From a virus, in IMG/VR virus record IMGVR_UViG_3300037842_000430, positions 1 to 30,988 of that record: 30,988 nt of DNA. One strand, given 5' to 3'. Position numbers and translations under genes: made by a program. The notes under the pieces are model-generated. The model did not search any database. It was not told the origin of the DNA and saw only the letters and a program-made list of their open reading frames with translations. The stretch's first letter is position 1. Each line of letters starts with the position of its first letter. Shown here piece by piece: positions 3 to 17,179 of this stretch.

Positions 3-1061
3 ATCACTCCGGGGCGTGTCACCTTAGACCGCATCGCCTCATCTGTTTCTAACGTAGTAGGCATGGTCGATCTGATGGCCAAGTTCATGGCGTTGGAACT
101 CGTCGCTCAGGAGAAAGCCATCTTCCCTGACCGCTACATTATTGGCCGATCCGGGCAAGTCCCTATGATAGTTGGGGGCGAATGGAAAGATGGCCGGGAA
201 GGTGAAGTAAATGTCTTATTGGACGCGGAACAAATCGGAGAGTTGCGATCAGCCCCCGACGCATCGACCCGTACAGCGATCGACCGCCTCGAACGCAATG
301 CCCGAATTTCGACAGGCACCGTTCCCCAGATTGGTGGAGAATCCTACGGTGCTTTGCGTACTGGCCGTGGTATCGATGCCCTTATGGGGGCTTCTATGGA
401 TCCTCGCATCCAAGAGATGCAAGAAATCATGGAAGCGTACCTTCCGCATCTAAACGAATCTATTTTCGCTACCTATAAGGCGCATTGGGGTTCTAAACAA
501 TTCTCAATGTTTACTGGGTACAGCGGCGACTTCGGTCAAGTCAAGTTCACTCCGAACGAGCATTTCGAAACCTTCGACAACGTGGTATCGCATTCGATAC
601 CCGGTGCCGATATTCAAGGAACGACGATCCAGTTGGGTCAGTTGCTGGGTATGAAAGGCATTTCGTTGGCTACGTTCCGTACCCGCCACCCGTACATCGA
701 TGACCCGGAGGCTGAAGGCCGCCGTGTAGATGAGGAACAGTTGGAGGAAGCAGTCATGGCTGCCATCCAACAGCAGTCAGCGTCTGGCCAGTTGCCTGTC
801 GTGTATGTGGCGAAGATCGAAAAGTTCCGCAAGAAGGGGTTCGATATTTTCGAATCGATTCAAAACGCCGACGAAGAGATCAAAAAGGAACAAGCAGAGA
901 TCGCACCTCCTACCCCTGAAGGAATGGGGATGCCTCCACAAATGGCTCCCGGTTTAGCGGGCGGCCCGGAGATGATGGGTCCCCAAGGTCAAGCACCACC
1001 ATCGGGGGAGTTTTCTCCTGAGGCGGCGCAACAACTTATCGGTGCTTTGAGGTCACAATAA
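3..1061 (+). CDS. Portal protein, C-terminal part (5' end outside window)
   Basis: The reading frame is open from the first full codon of the window, so the Met at 63 is internal and the gene is truncated by the window edge. The visible 352 codons resemble the C-terminal half of a phage portal protein, the dodecameric ring through which DNA is packaged and ejected. Supporting features are a helix-rich segment, then a stretch around nt 645-720 of the form ISLATFRTRHPYIDDPEAEG, which matches the usual portal pattern in which helices are followed by 'P-x-I-x-D-P-x-x-E'. A long acidic helix and a Pro/Met/Gly-rich tail follow, common in portals. The stop overlaps the next start as TAATG. The neighbouring virion genes and capsid module fit. 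The large terminase gene is expected just outside the left edge (inference). Confidence 0.75.
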   Translation: MTPGRVTLDRIASSVSNVVGMVDLMAKFMALELVAQEKAIFPDRYIIGRSGQVPMIVGGEWKDGREGEVNVLLDAEQIGELRSAPDASTRTAIDRLERNARISTGTVPQIGGESYGALRTGRGIDALMGASMDPRIQEMQEIMEAYLPHLNESIFATYKAHWGSKQFSMFTGYSGDFGQVKFTPNEHFETFDNVVSHSIPGADIQGTTIQLGQLLGMKGISLATFRTRHPYIDDPEAEGRRVDEEQLEEAVMAAIQQQSASGQLPVVYVAKIEKFRKKGFDIFESIQNADEEIKKEQAEIAPPTPEGMGMPPQMAPGLAGGPEMMGPQGQAPPSGEFSPEAAQQLIGALRSQ

Positions 1062-1483
1062 TGCCACGCAAACGACAAACTCAGAAACCCGTTACGGCGG
1101 GTTTAGAAGCCGGTGCCTCTTACGGGCAGGTCGGCGAAAACCTTACCGTTCAAGACCCTGCCCAAGGCGGGGTTCCTCTTCCGCAGTCTCGGGGTCCTTC
1201 CCCCACTCCCCCCGGTGCTGCGCCTGCCCCTTCGGGCGCGGGGCCAGTTCCTCCTCCGGGTGGGGCTGGCGAACTCCCTTTAGAAGCAGCGCAAGGATTC
1301 AACCCCGGGTTGACTCCCTTGACTGCTCCCGGGTCAGGGTTGCAGCAACAACGCGGCGGCCCTCCCCCCATCGCAGACAATAAAGAACGAGCGGCTCGCT
1401 TGCTTGAAAGTTGGGCTGCGGCGACTCAAGACCCATCAATGGCTAAGGCCGCAGCACAGTTAAGGATGCGTAGAAATGCCTGA
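1061..1483 (+). CDS. Pro/Gly/Ala-rich hypothetical protein (140 aa)
   Basis: Not recognised. The first 10 residues are basic (PRKRQTQK), residues about 30-100 are low-complexity Pro/Gly/Ala, and residues about 105-140 form a short predicted helix rich in Ala, Arg and Met. It begins at the ATG of the TAATG overlap with the portal gene and ends 8 nt inside the giant gene that follows, so all three are probably translationally coupled. The disordered middle and helical tail suit a small virion or assembly protein associated with the portal or with the giant protein, but no function can be read from the sequence. Confidence 0.75.
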   Translation: MPRKRQTQKPVTAGLEAGASYGQVGENLTVQDPAQGGVPLPQSRGPSPTPPGAAPAPSGAGPVPPPGGAGELPLEAAQGFNPGLTPLTAPGSGLQQQRGGPPPIADNKERAARLLESWAAATQDPSMAKAAAQLRMRRNA

Positions 1484-4400
1484 ACTCGTTCCGGTAGGGG
1501 ACTGGCAAACAAACCCATACACGACGGCTTCTTACGATTCGGAGGAGTACGCTCGCCGCCTCCAGTTGCTTATTTCTGCTACAGGCGGAGGCCGCTGGTT
1601 GGAAACAGATCCCGTGTCTCTTGTCGATTTAGCACAGGGCGGACTTGACGACGACGACATGATGGATGTTTTTCTTACAGCATCAGGGCAGGCTGCCCTT
1701 AATGACATGAAAACCAATTTCGAAGTTATCCCAGCGCAGTTTCAAGAAGCCCAGTTTGGGTTACTTCCCCCGCAAGCGCAGCAAGCATTATTAGATCAGG
1801 GGTATCAGCCTCCTTGGATAGATACCGAACAAGAAAAGTTTGACGCGTTACCTTTATGGAAACGGGCATTGACCCAAAATCTAGGCATGCTCGTACCGGA
1901 CAAATGGGCGGAAAGAACTTTCGGGACGGCAGCGACTGTTGCCTTGGCTCCAGTGCGCGTAGTTGGTTTCGGTATTGGTAAATCTGTTAGCGGGTTATGG
2001 CATGGAGGGACCGCAGGAATGCGGTGGGCGGAACACGTTTTTCGAACTTTTAACTATGTCGGGCAGACGCTCGATACTCCGGGAGTTTTGTCATCTCAGA
2101 TGCTTCTGGGAGATTCCGATTCAGATAACAATTTGGAGGCCCGCATAAACAGGGGAGACATGGGGAACCCGATGGGGGCGCTATCCCCCTCCTTGTGGTC
2201 AGAGGCATGGAACGAAACAGAACTAAATGAAGATTCATATACGAAGGAATCGTTAGATCAGGCCAAAGCATTGGTGGGCGGCGACGAAGTAGATAGGATA
2301 CGAAAGTTCCTTCACGAGGGTTTAACAGGGGTCGTAGCAGACTACTTAGAAGCAGGAATGAGCGAAGCAGAGGCTCGTGAATCCTATATGGGGTGGTACG
2401 AGAGCCTTGGGGCTGACCCCGAAATGAACCAAGCATTGACCCTTTTGAACGGCAACAGAAATACTGGAGGCATGGGGTTTCTTCACTCTTGGAATCGGAT
2501 GTCTGGTCAAACGGTTGAACCTGACACGGTAAGAGGCCAAGTGTTGATGACCTCAGGATCCATTGGGGCGACAATATTATTGGATCCGGTGACCTATACC
2601 CCCGGTGGGTTAAAAAATCTCCGCACCGTGATGCGCGGTGTTTACAAAGGGAAGAACCTTGCGGACGTTATGAACCATGCGCGCAGGGGGCAAGCCGCTC
2701 TGCGGGCCGCTGAAAAGTACGGTATAAGATTACAGGATGTAACTACCGCCGAGTTATCGGTAGCCGAAAATGCCCGCCTTGGCTTGGCTGGACGCATATC
2801 CGAGCCTTTGATGGGAGCAGAATACCTAGCAACGTGGGCAGAGAAAAGCGGCGGCGGATGGTTGGCAAGGATTCCGATGATTCAAAAGGTCGCATTAAAA
2901 AATCAGCAACGGTATATAAATAAGGTTACTACTGCTTTTAGGATCCAAGACGAAATTGATGCAGCGACCTCCGCTATCCGCTCTCAACGAGTATTGGATG
3001 GATTGCCGGGTTTGTCCGAAGCAGAAATGATGGCCGCCGTAGCCGAGAGAACGGGAGGCGAAGTTTCCGGAGGGGCGTTCCAACTATTGATTGGGGCTCA
3101 TCCAGAAACTGCTAAAGTTTTAGATTTGATGAGAGACTGGCATCAAGCGCGTAAAAGCATGTTGATGGGGATAACGGAAGAGGGTGCTGCGATCCGCGCT
3201 AGAACAGGAGGGGTCACAGAGGGGTTGTTAGAAACCCGCCAAGTCTCAGACATGTCTACGATGGAAGGATTCTTTGATTTTCTAGTTGCCGATCAGGGGC
3301 AAGCAGCATTTGCCACTAAATGGGGGGGCATCAGTCCCCAAGGGATGCTTCTTCCACAAATGACGCGAGGCAATCTGTTCAAAGGGAAACTCGTTAATCA
3401 AATAGATGACCTTGTTCTCAATCCGTATGATGCTTCTGGTTGGGATCTGGGAAGGATGGCAGACGAAACAGCGGACGCTGTTGCAGGGAACCGTAACTTC
3501 ATTATCAATAGCATCAAAACCGCTATCACAGATGGCGGTATCAAACTGTCTAAAAAATACCAATCTAGTGATATTGCTCAGGTGCTAAATGATTTCTCCT
3601 TAAGCAGGGAGGCGGGGTTGGCTCGCGCTGAAGCGGTCGGGATGATCAATTCTGACCGTATGGTTTTATACAAAGCGTTCGTCAAGTTCGGAGAGACTGC
3701 CCCAGCGATCATCAAAAAAGATGGACAGATGTCCGCTTTGGGCAACTGGTATCAGACGTTCGGTTACAGCGTCACCTCGGATGGAATGAAATGGATCAAG
3801 GGTATCAGCCCCCTAAAGGGGCCGCTTCGTGCGCGCCAAAACTTTTTAAGACGACAGTTACACAATTCGGGGAGCGTCAATAGTGAGGCCGCATTGCTTG
3901 AACGTTTGTGGGGGCAACTAGGAGGAGCGGCGGTAGGGGTAATGTATTACCCTGCGGCGTTCGCCAAAAGCCTCCTAACCTACGTCCCGAAAACTAACCA
4001 TTTGGATGTTGTCACCAAAGAAACAGCGATCGTCGATTTCAATGCTTACGTTGAAATGGGGGCGCTGGCAGATATGCCGCGCGAAGTAATGAACTATTAT
4101 AAGCGTGCATTCATTATGGGGAACGAGGCGCAACGCATCCAAGCCTCAATGGGTTTACTTATGGACATGGCGGGCCGTACAGGGATGCTACTCCACGGCG
4201 GCGATGACGTTACTCAATTCCTAGACAAGTTTGTTCGCAACGCAGAAGCCAAATATTCGTTACTACAAAGCGATTTTCTCGGGTTACAAGGAATGAACAC
4301 AAAGCGAGGGATTTTCCCTAGCGCATTCCAAGAGGGACACATGTCGGCGTTAAACGTTATGCCGAATTATCGTGAACTTGCAGCATTAACCCGTCGAATC

Positions 4401-7400
4401 TCCTACGCCCGGACGATGGGTCACGGCATTCAACTTCCCTTGATCGATAAGTTTTTTGCGATGTGGTGGAGGCCAATGGTGCTTCTCCGTTTGGGTTACG
4501 TTGCCCGCAACGGCGGCGAAGAACTATTTACTTGGATACTACGCGAAGGTCCGCTACCTCATCTGAAGTCCCGTTTAGGTAAGGGTGCCATTGGGATCGA
4601 ACCAGTCTTTGACGAGTTCGGAATAAAATCTGTACGAAAGATAGGGCAGGGTGATGATGTTATTCGCCACGCCACCTTCATGCGCCCCGTCATCGGGCTT
4701 CAACGAGCGTTTAATGAAGTCATTGGTGCGGGAGATAATGCTCTAGCAGTTAAAGCCATCCGCAAAACATACGAAAACAACATGTCTCGTTGGGGGTTCT
4801 TAACAGACGCTGAACGTGTCGATTTATTCGAGTCGACACTTTTCGAACTACAGCAGGTTAAACGAAACATCTTTACCCGATCCTCGGTTGGATTATTCAA
4901 CATGGCGGAACGGCTCAGCATAAGTTCCGCAAGCCTGATGCACAAGGCGGCGACCACGGCTCGCATTCCAAGTAAACAAATAATTTCTCGGAGATTATTG
5001 AAAAGCATAGACAGAGATTATGTGTCTCGTATCGAAGCGATCGAAGATGCGTTGACGATCCCAACGATCATGGATTCGCACATGAAAAACGTGTTATCGA
5101 CTTTTGATAATTATATGGATTTCGGAGGTAACGGGGTACGCGACCTGATCGGGGCATCGGGAGGTGCGGGTATTAACAAGTTGCCGTTGAATTATCGACG
5201 AGCAGGATTCGTGCATGTATCGATGGACGACCTAGATACGTTCGATAAAACACGAGCAGCGACACAGCACCTCGATAAAATCGCTGAGAATAGAGCATTT
5301 TTGTTGGGGCCGGTCGACGAGATAGGGCAGTTCGTTCCTCAACATTTCGAGGATGCGCTACGTCCTTTCGCCGGCGAACTCATCGGGCTTCTGCCTGATG
5401 CTAAAAAAGCCAAATACGCTGATCAAGGGGCTGCGGCTTCCATCATAGGCATCCTAAGGGACCAATATCCCGATACTTACAGAATGATCCAAGAAGGATT
5501 TTTCCTCAATGCCCGACAGGAAATTGACACAATCATCGAAGGAGCAATACAATTTCTTTCCCCAAAGAAAGAAGACTTGTTGCGTCGATTGCTTTTGGGA
5601 ACGGATGTCTCTACGCAAAACTACAACATGGTAGCAATGCTATTTACAGACATAGATGTAAATAAAATCACCCATACTTTCGATGATGTCGCTCAGGCGG
5701 CGCAACAGATAACCGCACGATCATTGCGTACCGCTGAAGGCCAAGACGCATCGAAGTCGATGATTAGTGCTAACACGGGGATGATGGGCGGGGAGATAAG
5801 TCATCCCTTGCCTCCGGGACAAATGAGAACCTTCTATCCGTTGATTCCCAACGAGTACGCTCCCGAGTTTATTCGGATGCTTTCCCTCGCTGGAGCCCCC
5901 GCTGGGCAGAGTCGAGTGTTTTTTGAACAGTTTGTAGAACGACTTAACATTGGTTTAGTGGATCGCGGCTACCCGGAGATCGGCGAGAAGATAGCACGGT
6001 TGATGCGCCCCTCTGGCATAGATGACACCGCAACAAACTATATGAGGGTTGCCGCAGAGTGGCAAGATACCGGGATGGGTTACATGCCGTTAACTGTGGG
6101 ATCGTCGGATCCTGTGATCGCTGAAATAATCGCTAAAACGTTCGACGATATGGATATTTTTCGCCCCACTTCGTTGGATGAGATCCGTACTGTATTGCCC
6201 AATAGAGGGCGAATAGGTAGCCGTGTTACAAGCGATCAAGAGTTTCGCAATAACCCACTTTCAGGGATAGCGCATCGGGCAAGCAGGGGAAACCCGGCTT
6301 ACACAACTAAACGCGGTGGGATTACAGAGATCGCTTCCGACGCAGAACACGGTTCCGTTCCGTTACCTACAACAAATCATATGTTTTACGGTCTTGATTC
6401 CCGAGGGCTAGTGCCTGCCGTTGACTTTGGTCCAGGCGGTTTGAAAAACGAATTGGTTTATGGAACGAACTCTTATTCCCTTGGGAGGGACGCTGGGTTG
6501 GCTCCCATCGAAGTGGTTGACGGTGTTCCACAGGTTCACGCTATCGACATTTATCATAATAAGGACTCCGGCTGGCCTCTTGTGCTTCGGAGGGGAAGAG
6601 AAGAAGAGTACCCGGGTTTTGTTGCTGAAGAATGGAACCTAGTTTCGAGTACACATACTACCGGAAACGACTTATATAATTTCTCTGAAGAGACAGCAGC
6701 AATTTTGTCACAAGAGATGCTTCACCTTTTTTCTTCTGCATCACGGAGTCTTGACAACGTTGAAGTCTTTTACCCGTGGATCCAAGAGGTTCGGCGGGCT
6801 TCTCAAGCGGGTGGGATAGTCGATGAGGCAAAAATCGCTTGGCATACTACAGATTCTGGATGGTGGTCGAAGTCCCCCGAAACTCTTATCGGAGCAAAAC
6901 CTCTTGTCCCTCAGGGTGGACGCATCGAAGAGTTCAGGCAAGCATTGCTTGGCTACTGGTTTGATGGGGTCGTGAATCCAATGATTGGGGCAATGGTTCG
7001 TGAGCCACTATTCCACCATTACTTATTTCTAGCGAAGCAACAAACAGAAGGGATGAGAACCCTTTACAACCACAAGGTTGGAAGGTTCGATGACCTTGTT
7101 GTCAGGTTCGAACGCTTCGCAGAGTTCGGAGAGGACGGGCAGGTCGTTATCCCTGTTATGAGAAACGTCATTCGACTTGACTGGCCGCTGGCTCAAGCCA
7201 ATGCTGATTCGTTAATGTCGAACTTCATTTTTGCGTTAAATACTGCTGAGCCGTCTCGCATCAAGGGGGCTGTTAACAAGTTCCTAAAGGGTAAAGCATC
7301 TGAGATCACGACGGCGAGCGGAGGAGGGATGAATTTGGTTCTAGCAGAGGCAGATCAAACCTTCACTAACTTTTTGAGAGTCTTAAAAAAGCAGGATGAT

Positions 7401-9245
7401 GAAACGTTGTCGGCGTTCGCCAAGTGGGCGAAAGGGCGGAACGTTCAAAATGTACGCCATAACGAGGTCGCTACCCAACGGGCCATGACCTTAACCGGCG
7501 CATTCATTGATGATCATCGGATTCGTTCCCAGTTCCAAGAAATGGTCGGGACTCTAATGCCGTTTTGGTTTGCCGAGGATCAGTTCTTGCGACGCATGGG
7601 ACGTTCGTTGTCGTACAACCCGCGGATGTTCCGCGATCTGAGTTTAGGGATGCAGGCGGGTACCTATGGGGGCGTGGTTGCCGAGGATCGAAACGGAAAT
7701 AATGTTTTGGTGTACCCGGGGAGTGAGATTGTAACGAACGCTATTTTGGGGGTGGGGAACATCCCTGTTGTTGGACGAGTCTTCCGAACGGTGTTCGGCG
7801 GCGACTTGGGATCCGTTGTTAAAGACGGGACGCTCTCGTCTTCTATCAATGTTATCCCGGGTTACGATAAGGAATCGGCAGGCTCTATGGGGTTTGGTCC
7901 GTTGCTTGCCATACCCCTTTTGTGGGCAGCGCAGCGCGACCCTTCGATCCGTACAACATTTGAACACAACCTTATTGGGGGAAGGTTTGGGAGCAGGGCG
8001 GGATACGATTCGGATTCTTTGCAGGAAATTGTTTGGTCGAGTGTCGCCCCCGCTTTGGTGATTAAGAGTCTGAACACGTTGGGGATTACGGGAACTGGAA
8101 CAAGCGATAGAAGTGAAACTCCTCGCTCTAAAGCGATGATGGATGTTATTATGCTGCGCTTTATGAACGATGAGTTGATCACCGAAGAAGAGTTGGCGGC
8201 GCATCCTGATCCTGAAATGTTGTTGGAAGAGTTCTTAATGAAGGTCGACGAGGAAGCGAAACAGTTACAGTTGCTGCAATCGTTGACTTGGTTCGTTGGA
8301 CCAGCGACCGCTAACATCGCCGAGTTGACTGTGAAGAACAAGGCGTGGGAATGGAACCAAGAGTTCTATGATCTTGTCGATGAAGGCATCCCTTGGGAGG
8401 AAGCGTACAGGATGTGGCGAAACCGGATTATCGCCGTTGAAGGTGAGTTCGATCCATTCGAGTATTCTCCGTTCAGGGTCGGAAAATCCACGAAGGTTCC
8501 GTTTGCTGTATTGGAAACGACAAAGGCCGCGAACGAATGGTTGGCCACGAATGAAGAGTTCATCATGGATCATCGCTACTCGGGTGGATTTTTCATGCCT
8601 CGTGGTTTCGGCGACAACGACGATGAGTTCATAGCGGAGGCGAGGGGTCGACAGTTGGCTTACGGTTTGCGTGTTTCTAAAACCCCATCAGAGTTCCTTC
8701 AGGGGATCTTTTTCAACAACGGGTACTCTCAATGGGCACGCACCCGCTCTACGTTTTTGTCTACGAAATACCAGATGAAAGCAAGGGGTGAGAGTACTGC
8801 ACGGCTTGACAACATTTGGGCAGAATGGGATAGGTCTTTTAGTAATACTCATCCGGTTTATGCTGGACATCTATCTTCTGGAGGTTCGGGGAACAGGCGT
8901 GACAAAACGTTAGAGGAGATGCGGTTGTTGTTGCAAACCCCTGACATTATCCCCGAGGGGGAACACAGGAGCGACATTCTTTCTATGATGACTACGATTG
9001 TTGCGATGAGCGATGAGTTGGAAGCCTTAACTATTCTTGGCCGTGCTTCACGGTCGACCTCAGATCAACGCAACGAAGTAAAGGTACGCTACTACGAGAG
9101 GGTCAGGGCGTTCGTCAATGGTAAGCCTTGGCTAAATGAGTTATATTATAGTATGTTTATGCCGTTACTTAACGACACTTGGATCGCTAAGTATGATGCT
9201 GGTTTGATCGAGTTGAACCAGAGTATTGGAGAGAACCGTGGCTGA
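1476..9245 (+). CDS. Giant virion protein, putative internal/ejection protein (2589 aa)
   Basis: A single intact frame of 7.8 kb, the largest gene in the window. The ATG at 1476 has AAGGA about 9 nt upstream and lies within the end of the preceding gene. I do not recognise a catalytic domain: no HExxH, no Walker A and no convincing single-subunit RNA polymerase motifs. The protein is mostly helical with scattered Gly-rich amphipathic or hydrophobic patches, for example residues about 150-175, about 988-1020 (Trp- and Arg-rich, including FFAMWWRPMVLLRLGY) and about 2025-2060 (PFWFAEDQFLRR). The last pattern resembles segments of giant phage internal or polyvalent virion proteins (recollection, not a search). 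Its place after the portal, with no tape measure elsewhere, suggests a packaged protein ejected with DNA, comparable in role to T7 gp15/gp16. A tape-measure role is a less likely alternative. Confidence 0.7.
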   Translation: MPELVPVGDWQTNPYTTASYDSEEYARRLQLLISATGGGRWLETDPVSLVDLAQGGLDDDDMMDVFLTASGQAALNDMKTNFEVIPAQFQEAQFGLLPPQAQQALLDQGYQPPWIDTEQEKFDALPLWKRALTQNLGMLVPDKWAERTFGTAATVALAPVRVVGFGIGKSVSGLWHGGTAGMRWAEHVFRTFNYVGQTLDTPGVLSSQMLLGDSDSDNNLEARINRGDMGNPMGALSPSLWSEAWNETELNEDSYTKESLDQAKALVGGDEVDRIRKFLHEGLTGVVADYLEAGMSEAEARESYMGWYESLGADPEMNQALTLLNGNRNTGGMGFLHSWNRMSGQTVEPDTVRGQVLMTSGSIGATILLDPVTYTPGGLKNLRTVMRGVYKGKNLADVMNHARRGQAALRAAEKYGIRLQDVTTAELSVAENARLGLAGRISEPLMGAEYLATWAEKSGGGWLARIPMIQKVALKNQQRYINKVTTAFRIQDEIDAATSAIRSQRVLDGLPGLSEAEMMAAVAERTGGEVSGGAFQLLIGAHPETAKVLDLMRDWHQARKSMLMGITEEGAAIRARTGGVTEGLLETRQVSDMSTMEGFFDFLVADQGQAAFATKWGGISPQGMLLPQMTRGNLFKGKLVNQIDDLVLNPYDASGWDLGRMADETADAVAGNRNFIINSIKTAITDGGIKLSKKYQSSDIAQVLNDFSLSREAGLARAEAVGMINSDRMVLYKAFVKFGETAPAIIKKDGQMSALGNWYQTFGYSVTSDGMKWIKGISPLKGPLRARQNFLRRQLHNSGSVNSEAALLERLWGQLGGAAVGVMYYPAAFAKSLLTYVPKTNHLDVVTKETAIVDFNAYVEMGALADMPREVMNYYKRAFIMGNEAQRIQASMGLLMDMAGRTGMLLHGGDDVTQFLDKFVRNAEAKYSLLQSDFLGLQGMNTKRGIFPSAFQEGHMSALNVMPNYRELAALTRRISYARTMGHGIQLPLIDKFFAMWWRPMVLLRLGYVARNGGEELFTWILREGPLPHLKSRLGKGAIGIEPVFDEFGIKSVRKIGQGDDVIRHATFMRPVIGLQRAFNEVIGAGDNALAVKAIRKTYENNMSRWGFLTDAERVDLFESTLFELQQVKRNIFTRSSVGLFNMAERLSISSASLMHKAATTARIPSKQIISRRLLKSIDRDYVSRIEAIEDALTIPTIMDSHMKNVLSTFDNYMDFGGNGVRDLIGASGGAGINKLPLNYRRAGFVHVSMDDLDTFDKTRAATQHLDKIAENRAFLLGPVDEIGQFVPQHFEDALRPFAGELIGLLPDAKKAKYADQGAAASIIGILRDQYPDTYRMIQEGFFLNARQEIDTIIEGAIQFLSPKKEDLLRRLLLGTDVSTQNYNMVAMLFTDIDVNKITHTFDDVAQAAQQITARSLRTAEGQDASKSMISANTGMMGGEISHPLPPGQMRTFYPLIPNEYAPEFIRMLSLAGAPAGQSRVFFEQFVERLNIGLVDRGYPEIGEKIARLMRPSGIDDTATNYMRVAAEWQDTGMGYMPLTVGSSDPVIAEIIAKTFDDMDIFRPTSLDEIRTVLPNRGRIGSRVTSDQEFRNNPLSGIAHRASRGNPAYTTKRGGITEIASDAEHGSVPLPTTNHMFYGLDSRGLVPAVDFGPGGLKNELVYGTNSYSLGRDAGLAPIEVVDGVPQVHAIDIYHNKDSGWPLVLRRGREEEYPGFVAEEWNLVSSTHTTGNDLYNFSEETAAILSQEMLHLFSSASRSLDNVEVFYPWIQEVRRASQAGGIVDEAKIAWHTTDSGWWSKSPETLIGAKPLVPQGGRIEEFRQALLGYWFDGVVNPMIGAMVREPLFHHYLFLAKQQTEGMRTLYNHKVGRFDDLVVRFERFAEFGEDGQVVIPVMRNVIRLDWPLAQANADSLMSNFIFALNTAEPSRIKGAVNKFLKGKASEITTASGGGMNLVLAEADQTFTNFLRVLKKQDDETLSAFAKWAKGRNVQNVRHNEVATQRAMTLTGAFIDDHRIRSQFQEMVGTLMPFWFAEDQFLRRMGRSLSYNPRMFRDLSLGMQAGTYGGVVAEDRNGNNVLVYPGSEIVTNAILGVGNIPVVGRVFRTVFGGDLGSVVKDGTLSSSINVIPGYDKESAGSMGFGPLLAIPLLWAAQRDPSIRTTFEHNLIGGRFGSRAGYDSDSLQEIVWSSVAPALVIKSLNTLGITGTGTSDRSETPRSKAMMDVIMLRFMNDELITEEELAAHPDPEMLLEEFLMKVDEEAKQLQLLQSLTWFVGPATANIAELTVKNKAWEWNQEFYDLVDEGIPWEEAYRMWRNRIIAVEGEFDPFEYSPFRVGKSTKVPFAVLETTKAANEWLATNEEFIMDHRYSGGFFMPRGFGDNDDEFIAEARGRQLAYGLRVSKTPSEFLQGIFFNNGYSQWARTRSTFLSTKYQMKARGESTARLDNIWAEWDRSFSNTHPVYAGHLSSGGSGNRRDKTLEEMRLLLQTPDIIPEGEHRSDILSMMTTIVAMSDELEALTILGRASRSTSDQRNEVKVRYYERVRAFVNGKPWLNELYYSMFMPLLNDTWIAKYDAGLIELNQSIGENRG

Positions 9246-11067
9246 CGAAGAAGTAGAAGTGCCAACAACAACTGAAGTCGTTGTCAACATTGGGGATGAG
9301 ACTATCCCCGCTGATGACGATTTGTGGGCTAGCGAAATAGAAACGCTGATAGCGGAAATAGATCAGCGTTCGCGTTCTGCACGATTGCAGGAAGTCGCGA
9401 TCCGTAACTTGGGTTCCGATTCCGAAGCCTTCGCTCGCGAGTATTATTTTTCAAACAGAGATCAAGATGAGTCGTTAAGTATGCTTATCAATTATTTTTT
9501 AGGGTACGGGATTACACGCTTGCCAACTGGTTCGATTGAGGCTCCCCTTACCCCAATCGAATCTATCCGTTACGGGGAAAGAGATGCCCGAGAAGTTGTA
9601 GGGCAACGAGCCGACGGAGCGCAACCAAACTTAGATTTCTTAAACATTCGTGGCAACGACGAAGACCGAGCAGCGTTGTCGAATTGGTTCGAAGCGAACT
9701 GGTTTCAGGTCCCAGAGTTGGTCGAATATGTTAACGCCAGGTTGGATAAACAAACAACTGATCCGAGGGCCCCTTACGCGTTGCGTAACCCTGCGGTTAG
9801 TGATCCCTTCGAAGACATGCTATCCGGGGTAGATGAGGACAAGTCGCTACTCCCGGCGATTATTGATGAATGGGTTGAGGAACAGGCATCGAACTCGAAG
9901 GTTATAAGAACCACAACCGAATTGGGGGAAGAAGCATTATTATCGTTTGCTTACGATGATGGCCCGTACCAGTATGGTTCGGTGTGGGACATGATGGCAG
10001 GGAACGGATTGGGTTTGATGCCTGCGGCTTTCCTTCAAACTCTTAACGATACTGATCCTCAGACTTACATGAGTTTCCAAAACGAATTGTGGGCTCTCGG
10101 CTACTTAGAGCAACCCCCTAACTGGGGACTCGTGGATCAGGCTACCCGTAACGCTGCATCGCTCATGTACTTGACGACAGTCAACCAAGGGTTTATCCAG
10201 TTGGAAAACGGTGGAGAGTTTAATTTAGAAGAAATCCGCCGATACGCGACAGCGGAACGCCTTAACGAAGTAGCGAATCGGCGACCAGATGCCGCTGGTC
10301 GCATTTCTGATGATTTTATTTCGCAAATAAATGATCGTGTTGCTGAGTTGCTTGCTCAAGCGGGAGTCTCCACAATGTCGAACGAGGGTCAAAGGAAGAT
10401 CGCTGACAGTATTAGGGCCGTGGTTATGGCGGAAGGAGCGAACCGCCAAGGGGGGACTGCATCTGAGACGGCGTTGGCCGATTCAGTTTTTAAACAGTTT
10501 TATTCAGATGCCGAGTTGTCTGACTCGGAAGCGGATCGGGAATCGTGGGCGGATTATATTCGTATTGGTGACGAGGGGACAGATGACGCGTATCTTGGGA
10601 TTGCCCAACGTTCGGATGTTTTGTCGCAGGAACGCCGTGATGCCATAAGCATAGATGGGGCATTGACGGTGAGGAACCAGATGACCCCAGAAGAGGTGAT
10701 AGGGACCGCTCGTGCTAATTTCGTGAACTGGTTGCCGACGGATCAAAACGGAGCCGCTGTGGCAGTTAATGATTTATCCGTTGATCAGATCGCTAATGCT
10801 TTATCTAAGTATGCGGCGACGCTGGGTTTGGCTCACGCTAAGTCTCAGGGTTACACGCATGCCCAGTATCTAGATATGGCCGAGGTGGCTCGCCGTGGTC
10901 TTGCCGATAACCCGTTGTACTCTGATGTTGAGCATTTGGCTGAAAACGTTTTCTCTGGGTTGGATGTAGAGAAGAAACCCGACCCGTTTATTTCGGATGT
11001 CATGGGGGCCTTGGCGGGGGTCGGCGATCCAGCCGTAGCAAGACGTTCGCGGGTACGCAATGTCTGA
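9238..11067 (+). CDS. Hypothetical virion-associated protein with PG-binding-like segment (609 aa)
   Basis: I choose the GTG at 9238 rather than the in-frame TTG at 9226, because GGAGAG (9228-9233) lies 4 nt before the GTG and would be part of the coding region for the TTG. The start overlaps the giant gene by 8 nt. The N-terminus is acidic and Val/Thr-rich. Residues about 276-320 (including FQNELWALGYLEQPPNWG, followed by a D-x-x-T-x-x-A pattern) look like a degenerate peptidoglycan-binding helix bundle (PF01471 style). The C-terminal third is helical and ends in a short basic tail (RRSRVRNV). No enzyme motif is visible. Its position within the run of large proteins suggests a virion or ejection role (inference). 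Confidence 0.7.
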   Translation: MADEEVEVPTTTEVVVNIGDETIPADDDLWASEIETLIAEIDQRSRSARLQEVAIRNLGSDSEAFAREYYFSNRDQDESLSMLINYFLGYGITRLPTGSIEAPLTPIESIRYGERDAREVVGQRADGAQPNLDFLNIRGNDEDRAALSNWFEANWFQVPELVEYVNARLDKQTTDPRAPYALRNPAVSDPFEDMLSGVDEDKSLLPAIIDEWVEEQASNSKVIRTTTELGEEALLSFAYDDGPYQYGSVWDMMAGNGLGLMPAAFLQTLNDTDPQTYMSFQNELWALGYLEQPPNWGLVDQATRNAASLMYLTTVNQGFIQLENGGEFNLEEIRRYATAERLNEVANRRPDAAGRISDDFISQINDRVAELLAQAGVSTMSNEGQRKIADSIRAVVMAEGANRQGGTASETALADSVFKQFYSDAELSDSEADRESWADYIRIGDEGTDDAYLGIAQRSDVLSQERRDAISIDGALTVRNQMTPEEVIGTARANFVNWLPTDQNGAAVAVNDLSVDQIANALSKYAATLGLAHAKSQGYTHAQYLDMAEVARRGLADNPLYSDVEHLAENVFSGLDVEKKPDPFISDVMGALAGVGDPAVARRSRVRNV

Positions 11068-13858
11068 GGAGGAAGGAGACTCTGGCTCAATTTGGGATAT
11101 TCTCCCGGGAGTCAACGAGAGAGAAGATCAGCCCGGATACGAGGATCCCGATTCGTTGACTCAGGGCGAGAGGGATCGTGAAGAGTTTCTTGATGAAACG
11201 GTTGAGGCTACCCGTGATTACTACACGGGGAAGACTGCCAATGAGATAGATCCTAATGATCCGGTGATTGGTGAGCGTTATAGGTCTACTGGGGATATTG
11301 TTCGAGAAGACGCAGTTGACCGCAACGACTTTCGACGCAACGAAGAAGCAATAATGCTATCGGACCTTGGGAAAGAAGCATTGATGTGGGCCAGCACTTA
11401 CCCCGAATACACTTTAGGAATTAGGGGGGACCGGGAGTATTATGCAAACGAATACCTTGCTCAATTGGTTGACTTCAGGATTGAAGATATTGTCAGGGCG
11501 CTAGAAGACGATTACGGGGTAGACCAAGAGGTACTTGATTGGATGTTGGCGGAATCGGGAGAAGATGTTCGCCAGAATTGGGTCGCGCGTAACCTTGCCC
11601 CGTTCCTTTCGGATGGTATAGCGATGATAAAATCGAGTCAAAGTATGCACGGAGTTGGGGCGGGTTACAGAACCTTCGAAGAGTCGGGGGCAGAAAAACA
11701 AATAGGGTGGGAGAGTTCTGCGAATCCCTTAGTTGTATCTACCCCTGACTGGGGAGATCTCCGATCCTACACGGGTGCCGATGACAGTTTCATCAATAGG
11801 TTCATTCCTCAAACCCCAGAAGCAATTGCGTTAGAACTTGGGATAGATCTAACGGCAGGAGTTTTGATGAGGGGGTTGGTTAGGGGTTCCCGCTGGTTGA
11901 GGGCCGCCTACCTGCGTAGGGTCGCTGGTGAGTCGGTTGCGGAAATAGTTAACCCTGTACTGCGCGAGATTTTCACCCCTTCACTCTCTAACCAACTTAG
12001 GGGCATCGGTGACGGTTGGGGCCCACGCCTTGATTGGAAAGATGATTCGGTTGATTGGTTGAACCCCTATGTGGCGAACAAGGATGCCACTCTCGATGAG
12101 TTGATACAGTTTTTAGATGAGTTGGAATCAACCGACCCCAATATGGGTGCCCGATTGAGGGGGGAACTGAATAATGGGCCGGAGGGGCTTCATCCATCGC
12201 GGAGGGAAATGACGCAGCAAGAAATCGACCTCATCGCTGGGGTTCGAAACACTATGGATAGGATAAACCTAGAACTGGAGTTTGTGGAAAAGGTCATCGA
12301 TGCCCCTGTTCCCCCGAATAGAATAACTGAAGTTGATCCACTTATCGTTCAACCAACTCCGGCAGTTTCAGATATAAACGCATCTCACCTTTTCAAAAGA
12401 AGGTTGCCAGAACTTAGAGCGCAATGGGACGAGTTGATTGCTGCAGAAGGCCCATACGCTATCGGCGGGGACGAGGTGTACGGCGAGTACATCCAGATGC
12501 AGTACGATTTTGCGCGGATACTCGGCTATGAAATCGAGCCGTTTCCTCCTCTTTGGGAGGTGATAGGGGTGTCTGAAGAGGTGTACCTCTATAGGCAATT
12601 GAAGTACACTCTTGAAGAAATCAAAAAGATTCCTCCTGACATTATCGATGATTTGGCGGGCGAAGGTCAACGGATTAACCCGGGAGAACTCCAAGGTGGC
12701 ACAACGATCGATCATCGAGATGGTCCCGTCGGGGGGGCTTTTGAGGACATATATGAAGAGGGTCGTTACACCTATGAAGAGTTGGTGGAGGTTCGCGAAG
12801 AACTCATAGACCGGATAACAAGGGTAGTGGATGACGCTGATCCCATCGAAGCCCACATCGGTGCGGCCGGCGGGGAGTCCGCAGAAGGACTCATCGTCTG
12901 GGATCCCGACGAGTTACATGCGTGGTCCCGCAAATTTTTTGATGAGTTGGAAGGATCCCCCGCTAATCTACGTGATCGTGTTTTGTCGTCGTTCCGCCAT
13001 GACCACCCTCTCGGCGGACCCGCCCTGTCTGACGCTGCGCTTGAGAGAGCCTACGAACCGTTGCGACGCGACGAGTCAGAAGATTTTGTCCGATGGCTGA
13101 TGGACGGAGGCGGATCTACAGATGCGCGAACATGGGATGGGATGATGAGCGAGATGCTCGAAAGTCCCTACATAAATGGTCTGTTTGGTTCAATGAGGGT
13201 TAAGTGGTCACCAAGACTCACACCAGACGACCTTGGCCCCCTTCCTGGCCCCCCGCAACCAAACCCGTGGGCCCCCTCAGAGGGGGTTGCTCGCATTACT
13301 TCTGTAGACGAATTGATGAAAAAGATCTTTCCTGACCGGCCCTCCGGCATTGGCGGGCCGCCTTCACCCGATAGTGTCCCCCTGTTTAGAACAGAGGCAA
13401 GCGGAGTGAATCTTCTCGAATCGATGGAACCCGGAGTTGGCCCTCGGGGATCAAACTATTACCAAAGGGCTGATGGTTCTATCGCCCGTTACAAGACACA
13501 AGAAGCGGCATCCCAAACAGTTTCGCCAAACGAATGGGGCTGGATGAGTCCCAAGGGGGGAGATACGGGGGCGGCCCCTTACTATTTTATTACCCAAGAA
13601 GCGTCAGAACTTTGGGCCGGAACGCTAGCAGCGATACGCCGAAACGAGATAACTGCTGATGGTATCGTTGTTAAATGGGTTGTCGAAGGTACCAGTAAAC
13701 GAATGGAAATGACAGGATTCGCTAATGGAGAATGGGTAACCCTCCCAAACGTTGCCGACCAGTTACCACGCGAGGGCCTCTACCCTTGGGCATCGGATGG
13801 TTCCCATCTTGGGGATCGCATCGCTGAGACTTTTGATTCTCCGACTATTTTAGATTAG
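11060..13858 (+). CDS. Hypothetical large virion-associated protein (932 aa)
   Basis: Not recognised. It overlaps the preceding gene by 8 nt (ATGTCTGA) and uses the GGAGG-like sequence upstream. The N-terminal 100 residues are very acidic. A moderately hydrophobic helix-rich patch lies near residues 255-310 (AIALELGIDLTAGVLMRGLV and following). The middle is acidic and helical, with several Pro-rich linkers around residues 725-790. The last about 130 residues look like a small alpha/beta domain rich in Gly, Trp and Tyr (YYQRADGSIARYKT, APYYFITQEASELWAG). No catalytic motif is obvious. Being located between the giant protein and a wall-degrading enzyme, it is plausibly part of the same internal or ejection assembly. 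Confidence 0.7.
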   Translation: MSEEEGDSGSIWDILPGVNEREDQPGYEDPDSLTQGERDREEFLDETVEATRDYYTGKTANEIDPNDPVIGERYRSTGDIVREDAVDRNDFRRNEEAIMLSDLGKEALMWASTYPEYTLGIRGDREYYANEYLAQLVDFRIEDIVRALEDDYGVDQEVLDWMLAESGEDVRQNWVARNLAPFLSDGIAMIKSSQSMHGVGAGYRTFEESGAEKQIGWESSANPLVVSTPDWGDLRSYTGADDSFINRFIPQTPEAIALELGIDLTAGVLMRGLVRGSRWLRAAYLRRVAGESVAEIVNPVLREIFTPSLSNQLRGIGDGWGPRLDWKDDSVDWLNPYVANKDATLDELIQFLDELESTDPNMGARLRGELNNGPEGLHPSRREMTQQEIDLIAGVRNTMDRINLELEFVEKVIDAPVPPNRITEVDPLIVQPTPAVSDINASHLFKRRLPELRAQWDELIAAEGPYAIGGDEVYGEYIQMQYDFARILGYEIEPFPPLWEVIGVSEEVYLYRQLKYTLEEIKKIPPDIIDDLAGEGQRINPGELQGGTTIDHRDGPVGGAFEDIYEEGRYTYEELVEVREELIDRITRVVDDADPIEAHIGAAGGESAEGLIVWDPDELHAWSRKFFDELEGSPANLRDRVLSSFRHDHPLGGPALSDAALERAYEPLRRDESEDFVRWLMDGGGSTDARTWDGMMSEMLESPYINGLFGSMRVKWSPRLTPDDLGPLPGPPQPNPWAPSEGVARITSVDELMKKIFPDRPSGIGGPPSPDSVPLFRTEASGVNLLESMEPGVGPRGSNYYQRADGSIARYKTQEAASQTVSPNEWGWMSPKGGDTGAAPYYFITQEASELWAGTLAAIRRNEITADGIVVKWVVEGTSKRMEMTGFANGEWVTLPNVADQLPREGLYPWASDGSHLGDRIAETFDSPTILD

Positions 13859-13867
13859 GATAACTAC

Positions 13868-14878
13868 ATGGAACACGTTTTTCATAAACCATTCGCTCAA
13901 CGGCTACAAAGTTTTTTTGATGCAGCCCCTGATTCTCTGTCTGTCGCCGCAGGCTTTATGAGCGATCAGGAAATCGATACCTTTTATTCGGAAGTTAAAA
14001 AAACAAATCCGGGGGCTTTGGACGCTATGGGGCCAAGAAAGGCTTCACCTTTTTCTAAAGGTAGAGCAGCGATCTTAAAGTACCCGACTTCTCAAGCGGA
14101 GAAATGGGCAGTCCAAAATGGAGGCAGGTACGGATTGAAGGTTGATCCGAAAAACCCTTGGTTGGTGCGTCCACTAGGAGAGGGGCCAAGAAGCAAGAAG
14201 GATAAGTTCACAGCGGACGACCTTCTAGAAGCAGCGTTGGGAGACTTGTTTTACGGTGGAGATCCGTTCGAACGCTCTGGTACTGGCAGGCAAACACCCG
14301 GAAAGCCGGGAGGGGGCGGCACTACCCGAGTCAACTCATCGGAGATAAGGACTAAGGATTACAGTCCCGAAGATTGGCCTCCCGAGAGTGACCCTGCTGC
14401 CGTTGCCGACCGTGTGTTTGCTCTCGCCATGCAGGTTTGGCAGGATGTAGGTATTGCTACTACGATGACAGCCATTTCGTTATCGGAGTCGGGGGGTAGA
14501 AGTATTTTCTCTGGTACGGATGTGGATTCGCGTGGCTTGTGGCAGATTAATCTTGAAGTCCATGAACAGCCTCTGATCGATGCTGGCATTATTGAAACAC
14601 CAGCAGACTTGTGGGATCCGGAAACGAATGCGATAGCCGCCGAATATGTTGGCCGTGGCTCATCGTATCGCAGTCATACGGCCCCCGGTTCTGTTGATTT
14701 GTCTCGCTGGTCGGTGACGCATGGAGGTTTGGGCGCTCCCTACTTGGAAAATAGGGGGAAGGCCGAAGCGGCTCGCGATAGGGCAAACATTTCGGGGGTA
14801 TTCGGGTCGGGTTTCGAAGGGGACTGGAACGGACGGGTCGATATTCGTGATACAACAGATTTTAGAGGGGGACTATAA
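13868..14878 (+). CDS. Virion lysozyme/transglycosylase with degenerate M15-like N-terminal domain
   Basis: Two domains can be seen. Residues about 175-310 form a lysozyme-like lytic transglycosylase. ISLSESGG carries the probable catalytic Glu207, and RGLWQIN (222-228) matches the conserved G-L-W/M-Q-I/V-N motif, followed by a D-P-x-x-N-A motif (250-255). It should cleave the glycan strand of peptidoglycan. Residues about 22-101 align with M15/VanY-type D-Ala-D-Ala peptidases in layout, but the S-x-H-x-x-G-x-A-x-D motif reads SPFSKGRAAI (60-69), with His replaced by Phe62 and Asp by Ile69. The late PWH motif reads PWLV (97-100). All three zinc ligands are therefore absent. A Gly/Pro linker (about 138-155) separates the domains. 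Start ATG has AGGA 8 nt upstream. It could be a virion-borne wall drill or the endolysin; placement among virion genes favours the first. Confidence 0.8.
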   Translation: MEHVFHKPFAQRLQSFFDAAPDSLSVAAGFMSDQEIDTFYSEVKKTNPGALDAMGPRKASPFSKGRAAILKYPTSQAEKWAVQNGGRYGLKVDPKNPWLVRPLGEGPRSKKDKFTADDLLEAALGDLFYGGDPFERSGTGRQTPGKPGGGGTTRVNSSEIRTKDYSPEDWPPESDPAAVADRVFALAMQVWQDVGIATTMTAISLSESGGRSIFSGTDVDSRGLWQINLEVHEQPLIDAGIIETPADLWDPETNAIAAEYVGRGSSYRSHTAPGSVDLSRWSVTHGGLGAPYLENRGKAEAARDRANISGVFGSGFEGDWNGRVDIRDTTDFRGGL

Positions 14879-15849
14879 TGGTTTACGATCCACGAGGGTT
14901 CAATGACGCAATCAATGCGATTTCGGCTCCACCTGCTCCGCAGTCTCGGGGAGATATTATAGGCGAAACTGTAAACTGGGGCCAGTATTGGTGGCTCGAT
15001 CTCATCCCGGAACTCGATGCTTTTGTTGCATCCTGGGAAGCAAAGTTGGGATCCGATTATCAGGGGAACCTGAGCGGTGTTATTGATGATTTTCTTAAGG
15101 ATCTAAAAGGCCAATCATGGTGGGCGGACCATAATGATACTTGGCGGGCTGGAGAAAAAAGGAGAATCACAGATCCGGGGTCTTGGGCGGAAGACCTTCG
15201 AGTCAATTCTTTTGACGTTAAAACGTTCGCTTCTGGTTTAGGGTACGAATTAACGGACGATCAGATCTCATCGTTAGCCACAAACATGGCTTACTATGAT
15301 TGGACTGACTCTGAAATCGAACGCAAAATCCTTGACATATCATATTACAACAATGAGTCCGCAGGGATGCCTGCCACGGGTTCAGTAAAAACTACTTACG
15401 ACGCTATCATAAACATGGCTAGTAACAATTTGATTACCGTTTCTGATGAGTGGGCTTGGAGGCAGGCCCACAACATTAGATCTGAGGCGACTACTTCTGA
15501 AGCGGTTGGCCAATTCATTATTGGTTTGGCCAAAGAGGAGCATTCGTTTATGGAGGGCAGCAAGTTCGATGCATTGACTGCTGCTGATTCGTCGCTAGTG
15601 GATAGTTTGAACCCCGTGTTGCAGGCGGTGAAGTCTTCTTGGGAGGTAGAAGACTTATCGTTGAATGATGATTGGTTCGCTGATAAGTTGACGACAATCG
15701 ATGAGACAACGGGTGACCGTCGTTGGGTTACTTCTCGGGAGGCCACCAAGTTGGCTCATCAGGATGAACGTTATAAGGGTACGGCGCAGCATCAAGGTGA
15801 TATGAAACAGTTTACTAATGGTATCTTTCAAATGTTTGGAGTTCGATAA
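14878..15849 (+). CDS. Putative virion protein, actinophage-type helical protein (323 aa)
   Basis: It starts at the ATG of a TAATG overlap with the transglycosylase gene. The protein is helical and Trp-rich. In order it has an aromatic N-terminal region (WGQYWWLDLIPELDAF), a 'K-G-Q-S-W-W-A-D-H-N-D-T-W' segment, a repeated pattern of about 35-residue helices (LTDDQISSLATNMAYYDWTD), and a C-terminus ending DMKQFTNGIFQMFGVR. This layout of successive helical segments followed by a short 'WVTSREATKLAHQDERY' motif resembles, from memory, a protein family common in actinobacterial phages next to lysozyme-type virion genes. Function is unknown. I infer a structural or ejection role from its location. 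Confidence 0.65.
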   Translation: MVYDPRGFNDAINAISAPPAPQSRGDIIGETVNWGQYWWLDLIPELDAFVASWEAKLGSDYQGNLSGVIDDFLKDLKGQSWWADHNDTWRAGEKRRITDPGSWAEDLRVNSFDVKTFASGLGYELTDDQISSLATNMAYYDWTDSEIERKILDISYYNNESAGMPATGSVKTTYDAIINMASNNLITVSDEWAWRQAHNIRSEATTSEAVGQFIIGLAKEEHSFMEGSKFDALTAADSSLVDSLNPVLQAVKSSWEVEDLSLNDDWFADKLTTIDETTGDRRWVTSREATKLAHQDERYKGTAQHQGDMKQFTNGIFQMFGVR

Positions 15850-17090
15850 TGCTTAGTTACGGTTTGGGTAGTAGGACGAATCCCGATGCGGGTGTTCGCC
15901 GTTTGCAACAGCAGTTAAAAACAATCTACCCTGACATTGTTGTTGATGGTATTTTTCGTGGGGAAACAAAAAAGTATGTGATCAAATATCAGAAATCCAA
16001 GGGGCTGGCTCCTGATGGTGTGGTCGGCCCGTTAACCAATGGGGCACTTTCGGCTGATAGGGCCTCTGCGGTTGACCCTGCTGCGGCTGACCCTACCGTG
16101 CCTGATCCCGCCGTGGTTGATGAAACGGGTACTGACGAAACAGGTACTGACGAAGTTGAGACTGGTGCTGGTAGTACCCAGACGGGTGACGCTACCGTAA
16201 TCGACCCCGACGCGTTAAGGGGTGCGTTCTTGACAGGGTTGGCGGAGGTCGGGATCACCGGAGTTGACGCTACCGCTCTATGGGATGCGGCATCCACCTT
16301 GATTACGGATCCCGATTACGACGTTACTCAAATAGGGTACGACATGTATAACAGGGAAGACGAACGCTTCACGGCTTTGTCGACTGTTTTCTATACCCGT
16401 TTCCCTGCCATAGGAAATCTAATGGATGCACGAAGCGGACCGGATGGTGATGCGGAATTGTTTATTCCTGACCCTGCGTTTTATTTAGATTACGAAAAGA
16501 AAATAGCCGACCAGTTGGATTACTTCGGTAGTGCCGCCGACACTATGGATTTCACAGCGTTAGTAACATCCATGCTGACTAACGGTGTGGGAGAAACAGA
16601 AGCAACCTCTCGTATCAGCGCAGCCAAACGTGTCCTCGCTGAGAGTACCCCCCAAGAAGTAAAAGATGTTTTTGAAAAATGGTACGGGACTCAGGGGGAA
16701 GGCAACTTGTTGAAAACATTCCTCGACCCGTCGGACGAATGGGGTGGAACGTGGCAGGATGTTGAGAACCAAGCCAATGTCGCATTCATCGCAGGCAAGG
16801 GCGACCAGTTGGGTGACTTGGACTTTACAAAGGCGCGGGCTGAACAAATATATGCTTTGGGTAAACAGGAGTCAGCGTTGTGGACTTCGTTTGCTACGTT
16901 GAAGGCTGACGAAGAGTTGTTCTCTGAGAAATTGGGGGAAAAAGATTTTACCGCTGAAGAAGAAGGCGTAGAAGGCGCACTCTTTGGTGGAACTGAAGTC
17001 GAGAAACGACGGCAAAGCCGAGTCGCTGAGTTCAGCGGTGGTGGTGGAGCATTTATCTCCGGTGAAGGTACCGGATTAGGGAGCGCGTAA
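15849..17090 (+). CDS. PG-binding-domain virion protein (413 aa)
   Basis: Residues about 12-68 are a clear peptidoglycan-binding 1 domain (PF01471): VRRLQQQLKTIYP followed by VDGIFRGETKKYVIKYQ and GLAPDGVVGPLTNGAL. Residues about 70-118 are a low-complexity Pro/Asp/Glu/Thr linker with ETGTDETGTDE repeats. The remainder (about 120-413) is helical and contains an E-K-W-Y-G motif, ending in EVEKRRQSRVAEFSGGGGAF; this C-terminal type recurs from memory in virion proteins of actinobacterial phages. It starts in a TAATG overlap. The domain layout suggests it anchors a virion complex, or the neighbouring lysozyme, to the cell wall. It could alternatively supply the binding half of a split endolysin. 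Confidence 0.75.
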   Translation: MLSYGLGSRTNPDAGVRRLQQQLKTIYPDIVVDGIFRGETKKYVIKYQKSKGLAPDGVVGPLTNGALSADRASAVDPAAADPTVPDPAVVDETGTDETGTDEVETGAGSTQTGDATVIDPDALRGAFLTGLAEVGITGVDATALWDAASTLITDPDYDVTQIGYDMYNREDERFTALSTVFYTRFPAIGNLMDARSGPDGDAELFIPDPAFYLDYEKKIADQLDYFGSAADTMDFTALVTSMLTNGVGETEATSRISAAKRVLAESTPQEVKDVFEKWYGTQGEGNLLKTFLDPSDEWGGTWQDVENQANVAFIAGKGDQLGDLDFTKARAEQIYALGKQESALWTSFATLKADEELFSEKLGEKDFTAEEEGVEGALFGGTEVEKRRQSRVAEFSGGGGAFISGEGTGLGSA

Positions 17091-17179
17091 TGCCGAAAGT
17101 ACAAACCGCCAAGTCAAAAGGCAAGGCTAAGAAGATGCCGTACAAGAAAGTTAAAGGCAAGAAGGGGAAGAAATACTAA
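17090..17179 (+). CDS. Lys-rich 29-aa basic peptide
   Basis: A small frame between two TAATG junctions: its ATG overlaps the stop of the PG-binding protein and its stop overlaps the ATG of the holin. It encodes MPKVQTAKSKG followed by repeated KK pairs and ends GKKGKKY, with 13 Lys in 29 residues and no acidic residue. The exact fit between two coupled neighbours argues that it is real. Small Lys-rich proteins of this kind are encoded in late regions of many marine phages. A DNA-binding or condensing role, or a packaged basic peptide, would be plausible but is unproven. Confidence 0.7.
   Translation: MPKVQTAKSKGKAKKMPYKKVKGKKGKKY

Follow-up and report, generated by a model that had tools for sequence, protein, structure and literature searches.

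Organization of the locus

The 30,988-bp linear virus fragment IMGVR_UViG_3300037842_000430 from IMG/VR (positions 1 to 30,988, hereafter the window) starts inside a portal gene and carries, at positions 1476-17090, a block of six large open reading frames (ORFs). We consider it highly probable that this block specifies the ejectosome, or set of ejection proteins, of a short-tailed phage that is related to the Streptomyces phages of the Beephvirinae (cluster BF) and probably infects an actinobacterium. The block consists of the following genes (sizes in amino acids, aa):

1476..9245, + strand: giant protein of 2589 aa, no cysteine, proposed gp16/gp50-like ejection protein (ORF, conservation)
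9226..11067, + strand: 613-aa protein (TTG start at 9226) or 609-aa protein (GTG start at 9238), no cysteine (ORF)
11060..13858, + strand: 932-aa protein, no cysteine, in the position of the cargo slot of relatives (ORF, position)
13868..14878, + strand: 336-aa protein with a lysozyme-like SLT_3 domain, no cysteine (domain match)
14878..15849, + strand: 323-aa protein, phrog_6654, no cysteine (E-value 7e-14)
15849..17090, + strand: 413-aa protein with an N-terminal peptidoglycan-binding domain and a C-terminal phrog_8424 domain, no cysteine (domain matches)

The giant and large proteins that the initial annotation had placed between the portal and capsid genes are all encoded by intact ORFs, without internal stops, on the + strand and amount to 5,206 aa. 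Their genes had been described as all coupled by overlaps; this holds for most junctions, but a 9-nt gap separates the 932-aa and 336-aa genes. Similarly, the order from portal to scaffold stands, except that a 140-aa ORF precedes the giant gene and position 17090 is followed by about 0.7 kb devoid of long ORFs before the scaffold candidate.

The giant is a real gene, since more than 20 further uncultured contigs encode a version of it that is 34-36% identical along its length. About 25 uncultured relatives share the giant, with sizes of 2.5 to 4.2 thousand aa. These relatives share a constant gene order: terminase (~575 aa), portal (~604 aa), an ORF of ~122 aa (range ~120-135 aa) in the position of the 140-aa ORF, giant, a 600-810-aa protein, further block genes and the scaffold region. 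The 600-810-aa family, which includes the 613-aa protein of the window, always directly follows the giant. Furthermore, a near-identical contig (L002) adds 7.5 kb upstream, encoding fibre-like proteins, an amidase endolysin, the terminase and the portal, whose complete gene specifies 604 aa.

Absence of cysteine from the block

The block contains no cysteine in 5,206 residues (5,202 in the counts used for the tests), versus 53 in 5,995 for the other proteins of the phage (Fisher p = 8e-15) and 13 in 3,162 for the virion proteins outside the block (p = 3e-6). The relatives show the same property, with 3 cysteines among 52,978 residues in 20 giants, 1 among 13,847 in the 613-like proteins and none in the cargo proteins encoded at the position of the 932-aa gene (16,409 residues), the 323-like proteins (7,159) and the 413-like proteins (6,000). 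As these sequences are related and not independent, the totals indicate persistence and are not separate tests. The terminases and portals of the relatives have about 6 cysteines each.

We counted cysteines in seven reference podophages (T7, N4, P22, SU10, P-SSP7, epsilon15 and Sf6). Their pooled ejected proteins, those of P-SSP7 being assigned by synteny only, contain 7 cysteines in 16,822 residues (0.04%) versus 294 in 34,207 (0.86%) for the other proteins of the same phages. Cysteine depletion is seen in all seven reference ejectosomes and is not a textbook criterion. N4 gp50 has no cysteine in 3,500 residues, while the ejected proteins of epsilon15 are depleted and not empty (4/2,394). SU10 is the most clear-cut case: its cysteine-free run corresponds exactly to gp20-24, gp19 just before it having six cysteines; gp20-24 are present in virions and gone after genome release (PMC9509320). 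The corresponding block of the BF phages contains a single cysteine in 3,167 aa, located in a DCSG motif at the position of the catalytic cysteine of NlpC/P60. For the N4-type virion RNA polymerase, the lack of cysteine has been published (PMC3915230, citing Kazmierczak et al.) and attributed to the requirement for passage through the tail. Our literature search found no extension of this property to whole ejectosomes or to inserted effector domains.

Proteins of the block

The initial annotation had reported a lysozyme domain and a peptidoglycan-binding domain, and both were recovered: an SLT_3 domain at residues 196-263 of the 336-aa protein (E-value 5e-6) and PF01471 (PG_binding_1) in the 413-aa protein (E-value 1.6e-11). 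The 413-aa protein also matches phrog_8424, the family of BF gp14 (E-value 2.5e-11), and tblastn searches with it in phage records retrieved only the peptidoglycan-binding domains of endolysins. The 323-aa protein is homologous to the C-terminal domain of two BF proteins named "minor tail" (phrog_6654, E-value 7e-14); its RNase_H_2 match (E-value 0.02) was below cut-off and was rejected.

The N-terminal ~125 residues of the 336-aa protein are related to the C-terminal ends of the cargo proteins (hhalign 87%, E-value 4e-6, versus at most 3% for control profiles). This small shared domain is encoded at 13868-14245 in the window and found at the cargo C-ends of L003, L014-L018, L024, L029 and L030. 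From an alignment, we had considered that this N-terminus might be a degenerate M15 peptidase; this assignment was dropped because catalytic residues are absent and the cargo C-ends match better. The linear order of cargo, shared domain, lysozyme, phrog_6654 and phrog_8424 is constant in several relatives while gene boundaries shift. The shared domain could possibly be a docking domain that gathers these proteins at one place in the head.

AlphaFold models of residues 1390-2589 (25 sequences) and 1-1200 (20 sequences) of the giant reached a predicted local distance difference test score of 56 and 52, respectively, with a predicted template modelling score of 0.29. The giant is predicted to be mostly helical; at this low confidence, the helical character alone is usable and is indicative. 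Foldseek searches with these models gave no PDB match below an E-value of 0.38. In BFVD, two uninformative viral proteins were matched at E-values of 1e-3 or lower with template modelling scores of about 0.2 or less, the rest being tape measures at chance level. Thus, the AlphaFold and Foldseek check proposed initially, run on the giant, provided its helical character and neither a confident fold nor a structural match.

An alternative proposal would make the giant a virion RNA polymerase, like those of N4-like or crAss-like phages, and its neighbours the ejectosome of this enzyme. Its size, its lack of cysteine and its place among ejection genes fit N4 gp50, which is an RNA polymerase. However, no polymerase family was matched by the window giant (Pfam, PHROGs and NCBIfam) or by 18 members of its family (PHROGs), and neither half of the giant has a sequence match in PDB. 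We therefore regard a polymerase as extremely unlikely.

Comparison with known phages and host

The closest counterpart among cultivated phages is provided by the Streptomyces cluster BF (Stella, Kumquat, Abafar and Destructrice), in which phrog_6654, phrog_8424, phrog_7578 and phrog_11667 occur in the same order as in the window. The full BF order is terminase, portal, small ORFs, cysteine-free giant, small protein, wall-domain proteins, phrog_8424, scaffold, capsid, phrog_7578 and phrog_11667. BF phages are podoviruses with 16-nm tails (PMC11536984, PMC13097060), and Destructrice was described as having "no identifiable tape measure protein" (PMC13097060). Their giant, about 1,640 aa long and unannotated, lies at the place of the 2,589-aa giant of the window. 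It is followed by two paralogous proteins that both carry a phrog_6654 domain, one of them with NlpC/P60 (E-value 9.5e-30). In BF phages, the NlpC/P60 and lysozyme-like domains are fused to the phrog_6654 domain, whereas the window has a separate SLT_3 protein. BF phages also differ from the window by a capsid of another family, the presence of a transfer RNA cluster and the lack of any cargo slot that we could see. Weakly similar motifs are found in the same order in both giants (LDP..GGK near the start, RLGY in the middle), and this motif-level similarity is a hint that the giants may be homologous. In Stella, gp10-gp14 (L006:683-10166), unannotated or named "minor tail", look like an ejectosome.

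A second counterpart is the uncultured phage ct2KA10 (OX376640) together with its IMG/VR relatives. Its giant of 1,764 aa, also devoid of cysteine, shares homology with that of the window in the final ~540 aa (hhalign 98%, E-value 5e-13) and is followed by phrog_6654 and phrog_8424 proteins. A propeller-like protein and WhiB are present as well. In contrast with the window, the giant is shorter and there is neither a 613-like protein nor a cargo gene.

Further comparisons concern function. SU10 (Kuravirus) gp20-24 are five cysteine-free proteins including a 1,473-aa giant and a transglycosylase. SU10 and the window share the SU10-type capsid, and SU10 has an adaptor and a nozzle with a beta-propeller (PMC9509320); by contrast, no sequence match was found between them, the SU10 ejection genes come after the tail genes and the host is Gram-negative. 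T7 gp14-gp16, N4 gp50-52 and P22 gp7/gp20/gp16 resemble the block in having no cysteine, one very long protein and a wall-degrading domain (T7 gp16), but their hosts are Gram-negative. PHROGs and PDB profile searches revealed no match to any of these T7, N4 and P22 ejection proteins, and in that sense only is the suggestion that the block was "independently built" supported. A review of ejection proteins lists podophages of Gram-negative bacteria and reports their absence in phi29-like phages (PMC8954989).

An actinobacterial host, as assumed in the initial annotation, appears likely from the kinship to BF phages and from the relatives' WhiB genes, WhiB being an actinobacterial family; the support does not come from the window itself, this fragment having no WhiB gene. 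Of 11 records tested, 5 have WhiB genes that score above the Pfam cut-off and 2 more have weaker matches, and in the control set WhiB was found in Corynebacterium only. A host search for relatives in GTDB genomes found none.

Interpretation as a probable ejectosome

The ejection set is supported by the agreement of four lines of evidence, namely the absence of cysteine, the match to BF phages in domains and order, the lack of tape-measure and tail-tube genes in a 44-kb relative (L003, 44,224 bp, read gene by gene) and the wall domains. The DNA-ejection machine proposed initially is thereby upheld as the most probable function. Podophage ejection sets are expected to consist of large, mainly alpha-helical proteins of which one or more degrade peptidoglycan; the SLT_3 domain agrees with this, and the predicted helical content does so indicatively. 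The short tail and the lack of a tape measure or tail tube in this cluster are supported through the BF kinship (transmission electron microscopy) and the 44-kb relative, the window being a fragment.

Several observations weigh against this reading. Tape measures are cysteine-free too (0/853 for lambda H, 0/729 for phiC31), as are some scaffold and capsid proteins (the T7 and P22 scaffolds, the N4 capsid protein). Some relatives have no recognisable lysozyme in the block. The giant yields poor models without a match to a solved structure, and the window and BF giants cannot be aligned along their length (hhalign probability 1%). Since tape measures and some scaffolds share it, the cysteine mark is not specific to ejectosomes: it denotes proteins that travel through the tail or sit in the head, and does not by itself denote a podovirus ejectosome.

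The block could be composed of structural proteins that remain inside the head (inner body or scaffold-like), in line with these cysteine-free scaffold and capsid proteins and with its position next to the scaffold and capsid genes. However, lysozyme, NlpC/P60 and peptidoglycan-binding domains and effectors acting on nicotinamide adenine dinucleotide (NAD) or ADP-ribose make sense only outside the head, and in none of the seven reference phages did we see a non-ejected set of several thousand cysteine-free residues. Proteins that stay in the head are thus highly unlikely.

The giant might also be the tape measure of a long-tailed phage, with tail-tip proteins encoded by the genes that come after it. 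It is very long, mostly helical and cysteine-free like those of lambda and phiC31; its weak Foldseek matches include tape measures, albeit at chance level; domains of the lysozyme, NlpC/P60 and peptidoglycan-binding types are found in tape-measure and tail-tip proteins as well; and annotators have named BF gp12 and gp13 "minor tail protein". However, seven records had no match to the tape-measure family PF10145 and six had none to the T4-gp19-type tail tube (PF06841). Neither the 44-kb relative nor the upstream genes of L002 include a tape measure, in agreement with the initial statement that no tape measure or major tail protein is visible elsewhere in the window. In addition, the gene order, before scaffold and capsid, is wrong for a tape measure. 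The BF phages carrying the same module have 16-nm tails, whereas 1.5 Å per residue (a rule cited in PMC11536984) would give ~245 nm for a ruler of 1,637 aa. This explanation moreover leaves five further cysteine-free proteins to be accounted for, and we judge it very unlikely.

If the block is an ejectosome, its proteins would be packaged in the head at the portal. On adsorption they would precede the DNA, being threaded through portal, adaptor and nozzle in a partly or fully unfolded state. The 413-aa (peptidoglycan-binding) and 336-aa (lysozyme-like) proteins would bind and locally digest the wall, and the giant, 613-aa and 323-aa proteins may build or line a path to and across the membrane. 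Passenger domains and DNA would be delivered last. We infer this packaging, ejection and channel, as well as the roles of single proteins, the passenger role of the 932-aa protein included, from gene content and comparison. Ejectosomes are a known kind of machine; what would be new is their occurrence in podoviruses of actinobacterial type, the unusual length of the proteins and the exchangeable effector load. If this is true, the block of the window and the unannotated block of the readily grown Streptomyces BF phages would constitute an ejectosome for the actinobacterial envelope, with ejection proteins of up to 4,151 aa. Furthermore, the cysteine test is simple and picked out gp20-24 in SU10; it would allow injected proteins, among them anti-defence effectors not yet known, to be listed directly from sequence.

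Proposed effector cargo

One gene of the block is mosaic in the relatives: most copies share the N-terminal ~240 residues and many the C-terminal ~160, while the middles are exchanged. For instance, the cargo of L013 carries a cpYpsA SLOG domain (E-value 1.6e-21) and a weak NADAR, an ART-PolyVal domain occurs in that of L020 (E-value 8e-8) and weakly in that of L025, and L081 has a NADAR below the curated cut-off. The slot is dispensable, since in L021 (12086-14112) the lysozyme gene is directly followed by a phrog_6654-type gene and no cargo gene is present.

Effector domains are also inserted in the giant of two relatives, at the same site, which corresponds to residues ~1270-1390 of the window giant (about 5283-5645). 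The insertion comprises cpYpsA in L031 (E-value 6e-26), and NADAR (2e-10), an AlkB-type 2OG-Fe(II) oxygenase (5e-13) and cpYpsA (2.5e-18) in L082. The L082 giant (4736-17191) is a single open frame of 4,151 aa with one cysteine near its C-terminus, and L082 has no cargo gene. The block copies of cpYpsA that were examined contain no cysteine, versus 1-4 in each of four stand-alone homologues from elsewhere, a small sample. When viral contigs were searched with the cpYpsA and ART domains, only the same or sister contigs were retrieved.

Domains of this kind are thought to be packaged in virions and to act on NAD/ADP-ribose-based defence early in infection (PMC9503650). The polyvalent proteins and NAD-ADP-ribose effectors described there share ART-PolyVal, NADAR and cpYpsA SLOG domains, carried by large proteins of the virion gene cluster, with the relatives of the window; in the latter, unlike in polyvalent proteins, the domains lie within the ejection block, flanked by conserved ends or placed in the giant, and are cysteine-free. 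The exchangeable enzymes of the relatives probably disarm the host. Since effector domains move between the cargo gene and the giant, both proteins are suggested to end in the cytoplasm.

Polyvalent effector proteins are characterised by several recognised effector domains in one long chain, as seen in L013, L020 and L082; in the window, neither the giant nor the 932-aa protein showed any such domain. In relatives, however, the slot of the 932-aa protein holds multidomain NAD/ADP-ribose effectors, which makes a passenger destined for the cytoplasm its most likely role; its size and lack of cysteine also point to this. The competing idea, that it is a structural ejection protein forming a gp15-like tunnel, has some appeal: Pfam, NCBIfam, PADLOC and tblastn revealed no effector domain, tblastn in phage records retrieved no homologue and the conserved ends of the cargo family are not matched. 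It fits poorly with a slot whose content is exchanged between relatives and which can be empty, and we consider a structural role a plausible but somewhat doubtful option.

Taken together, these data raise the prospect of a modular chassis for protein injection, in which a conserved cysteine-free giant with one insertion site and one dispensable cargo gene would allow a family of actinobacterial podoviruses to swap anti-defence enzymes (NADAR, SLOG, ADP-ribosyltransferase and AlkB-type oxygenase), each kept cysteine-free for threading through the tail. Our opinion on this proposal is evenly divided. If it holds, cysteine-free stretches thousands of residues long would be a sequence-only marker of phage-injected proteins.

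Other genes of the window

The block is flanked by the following features:

3..1061, + strand: portal protein, truncated by the window start to its C-terminal 352 aa (SPP1_portal, E-value 0.005; phrog_104, E-value 0.001)
1061..1483, + strand: 140-aa proline-rich ORF between portal and giant, no cysteine (ORF)
17827..18294, + strand: 155-aa scaffold candidate directly before the zinc-ribbon ORF and the capsid gene (position only)
18689..19858, + strand: major capsid protein of SU10 type (PF17236, E-value 2e-53)
19937..20866, + strand: 309-aa adaptor/connector candidate, family of BF gp45 (phrog_7578, E-value 5e-32)
20869..22698, + strand: 609-aa putatively propeller-like protein, nozzle candidate, family of BF gp47 (phrog_11667, E-value 2e-37)
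22695..24041, + strand: 448-aa fibre-like protein with repeats

The later gene order had been likened to that of T7-like phages, and the succession of capsid, 309-aa, 609-aa propeller-like and fibre genes agrees with this. The location of the ejection genes does not: they come after the tail genes in T7 but between portal and capsid in the window and the Streptomyces BF phages. The comparison with T7 is thus borne out by function and by the capsid-adaptor-nozzle order, but extends neither to homology nor to where the ejection genes lie.

An FmdB-type zinc-ribbon protein (PF09723, E-value 3e-15) is encoded at 18294-18641, between the scaffold candidate and the capsid gene, and is kept in the 44-kb relative. 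Directly after the fibre gene, positions 24088-24870 encode a stand-alone RNase H-like exonuclease (phrog_403, DNA polymerase exonuclease subunit, E-value 4e-79). On the - strand, 29580-30392 encodes a protein with ArdC N-terminal-like and metallopeptidase-like domains (PF08401, E-value 3e-5; phrog_7245, anti-restriction). The same strand carries, at 26908-27756, a member of the Gp3-like recombination-directionality-factor family (PF18897, E-value 2e-28); the 44-kb relative, in which no integrase was seen, also encodes such a Gp3-like protein (PF18897).

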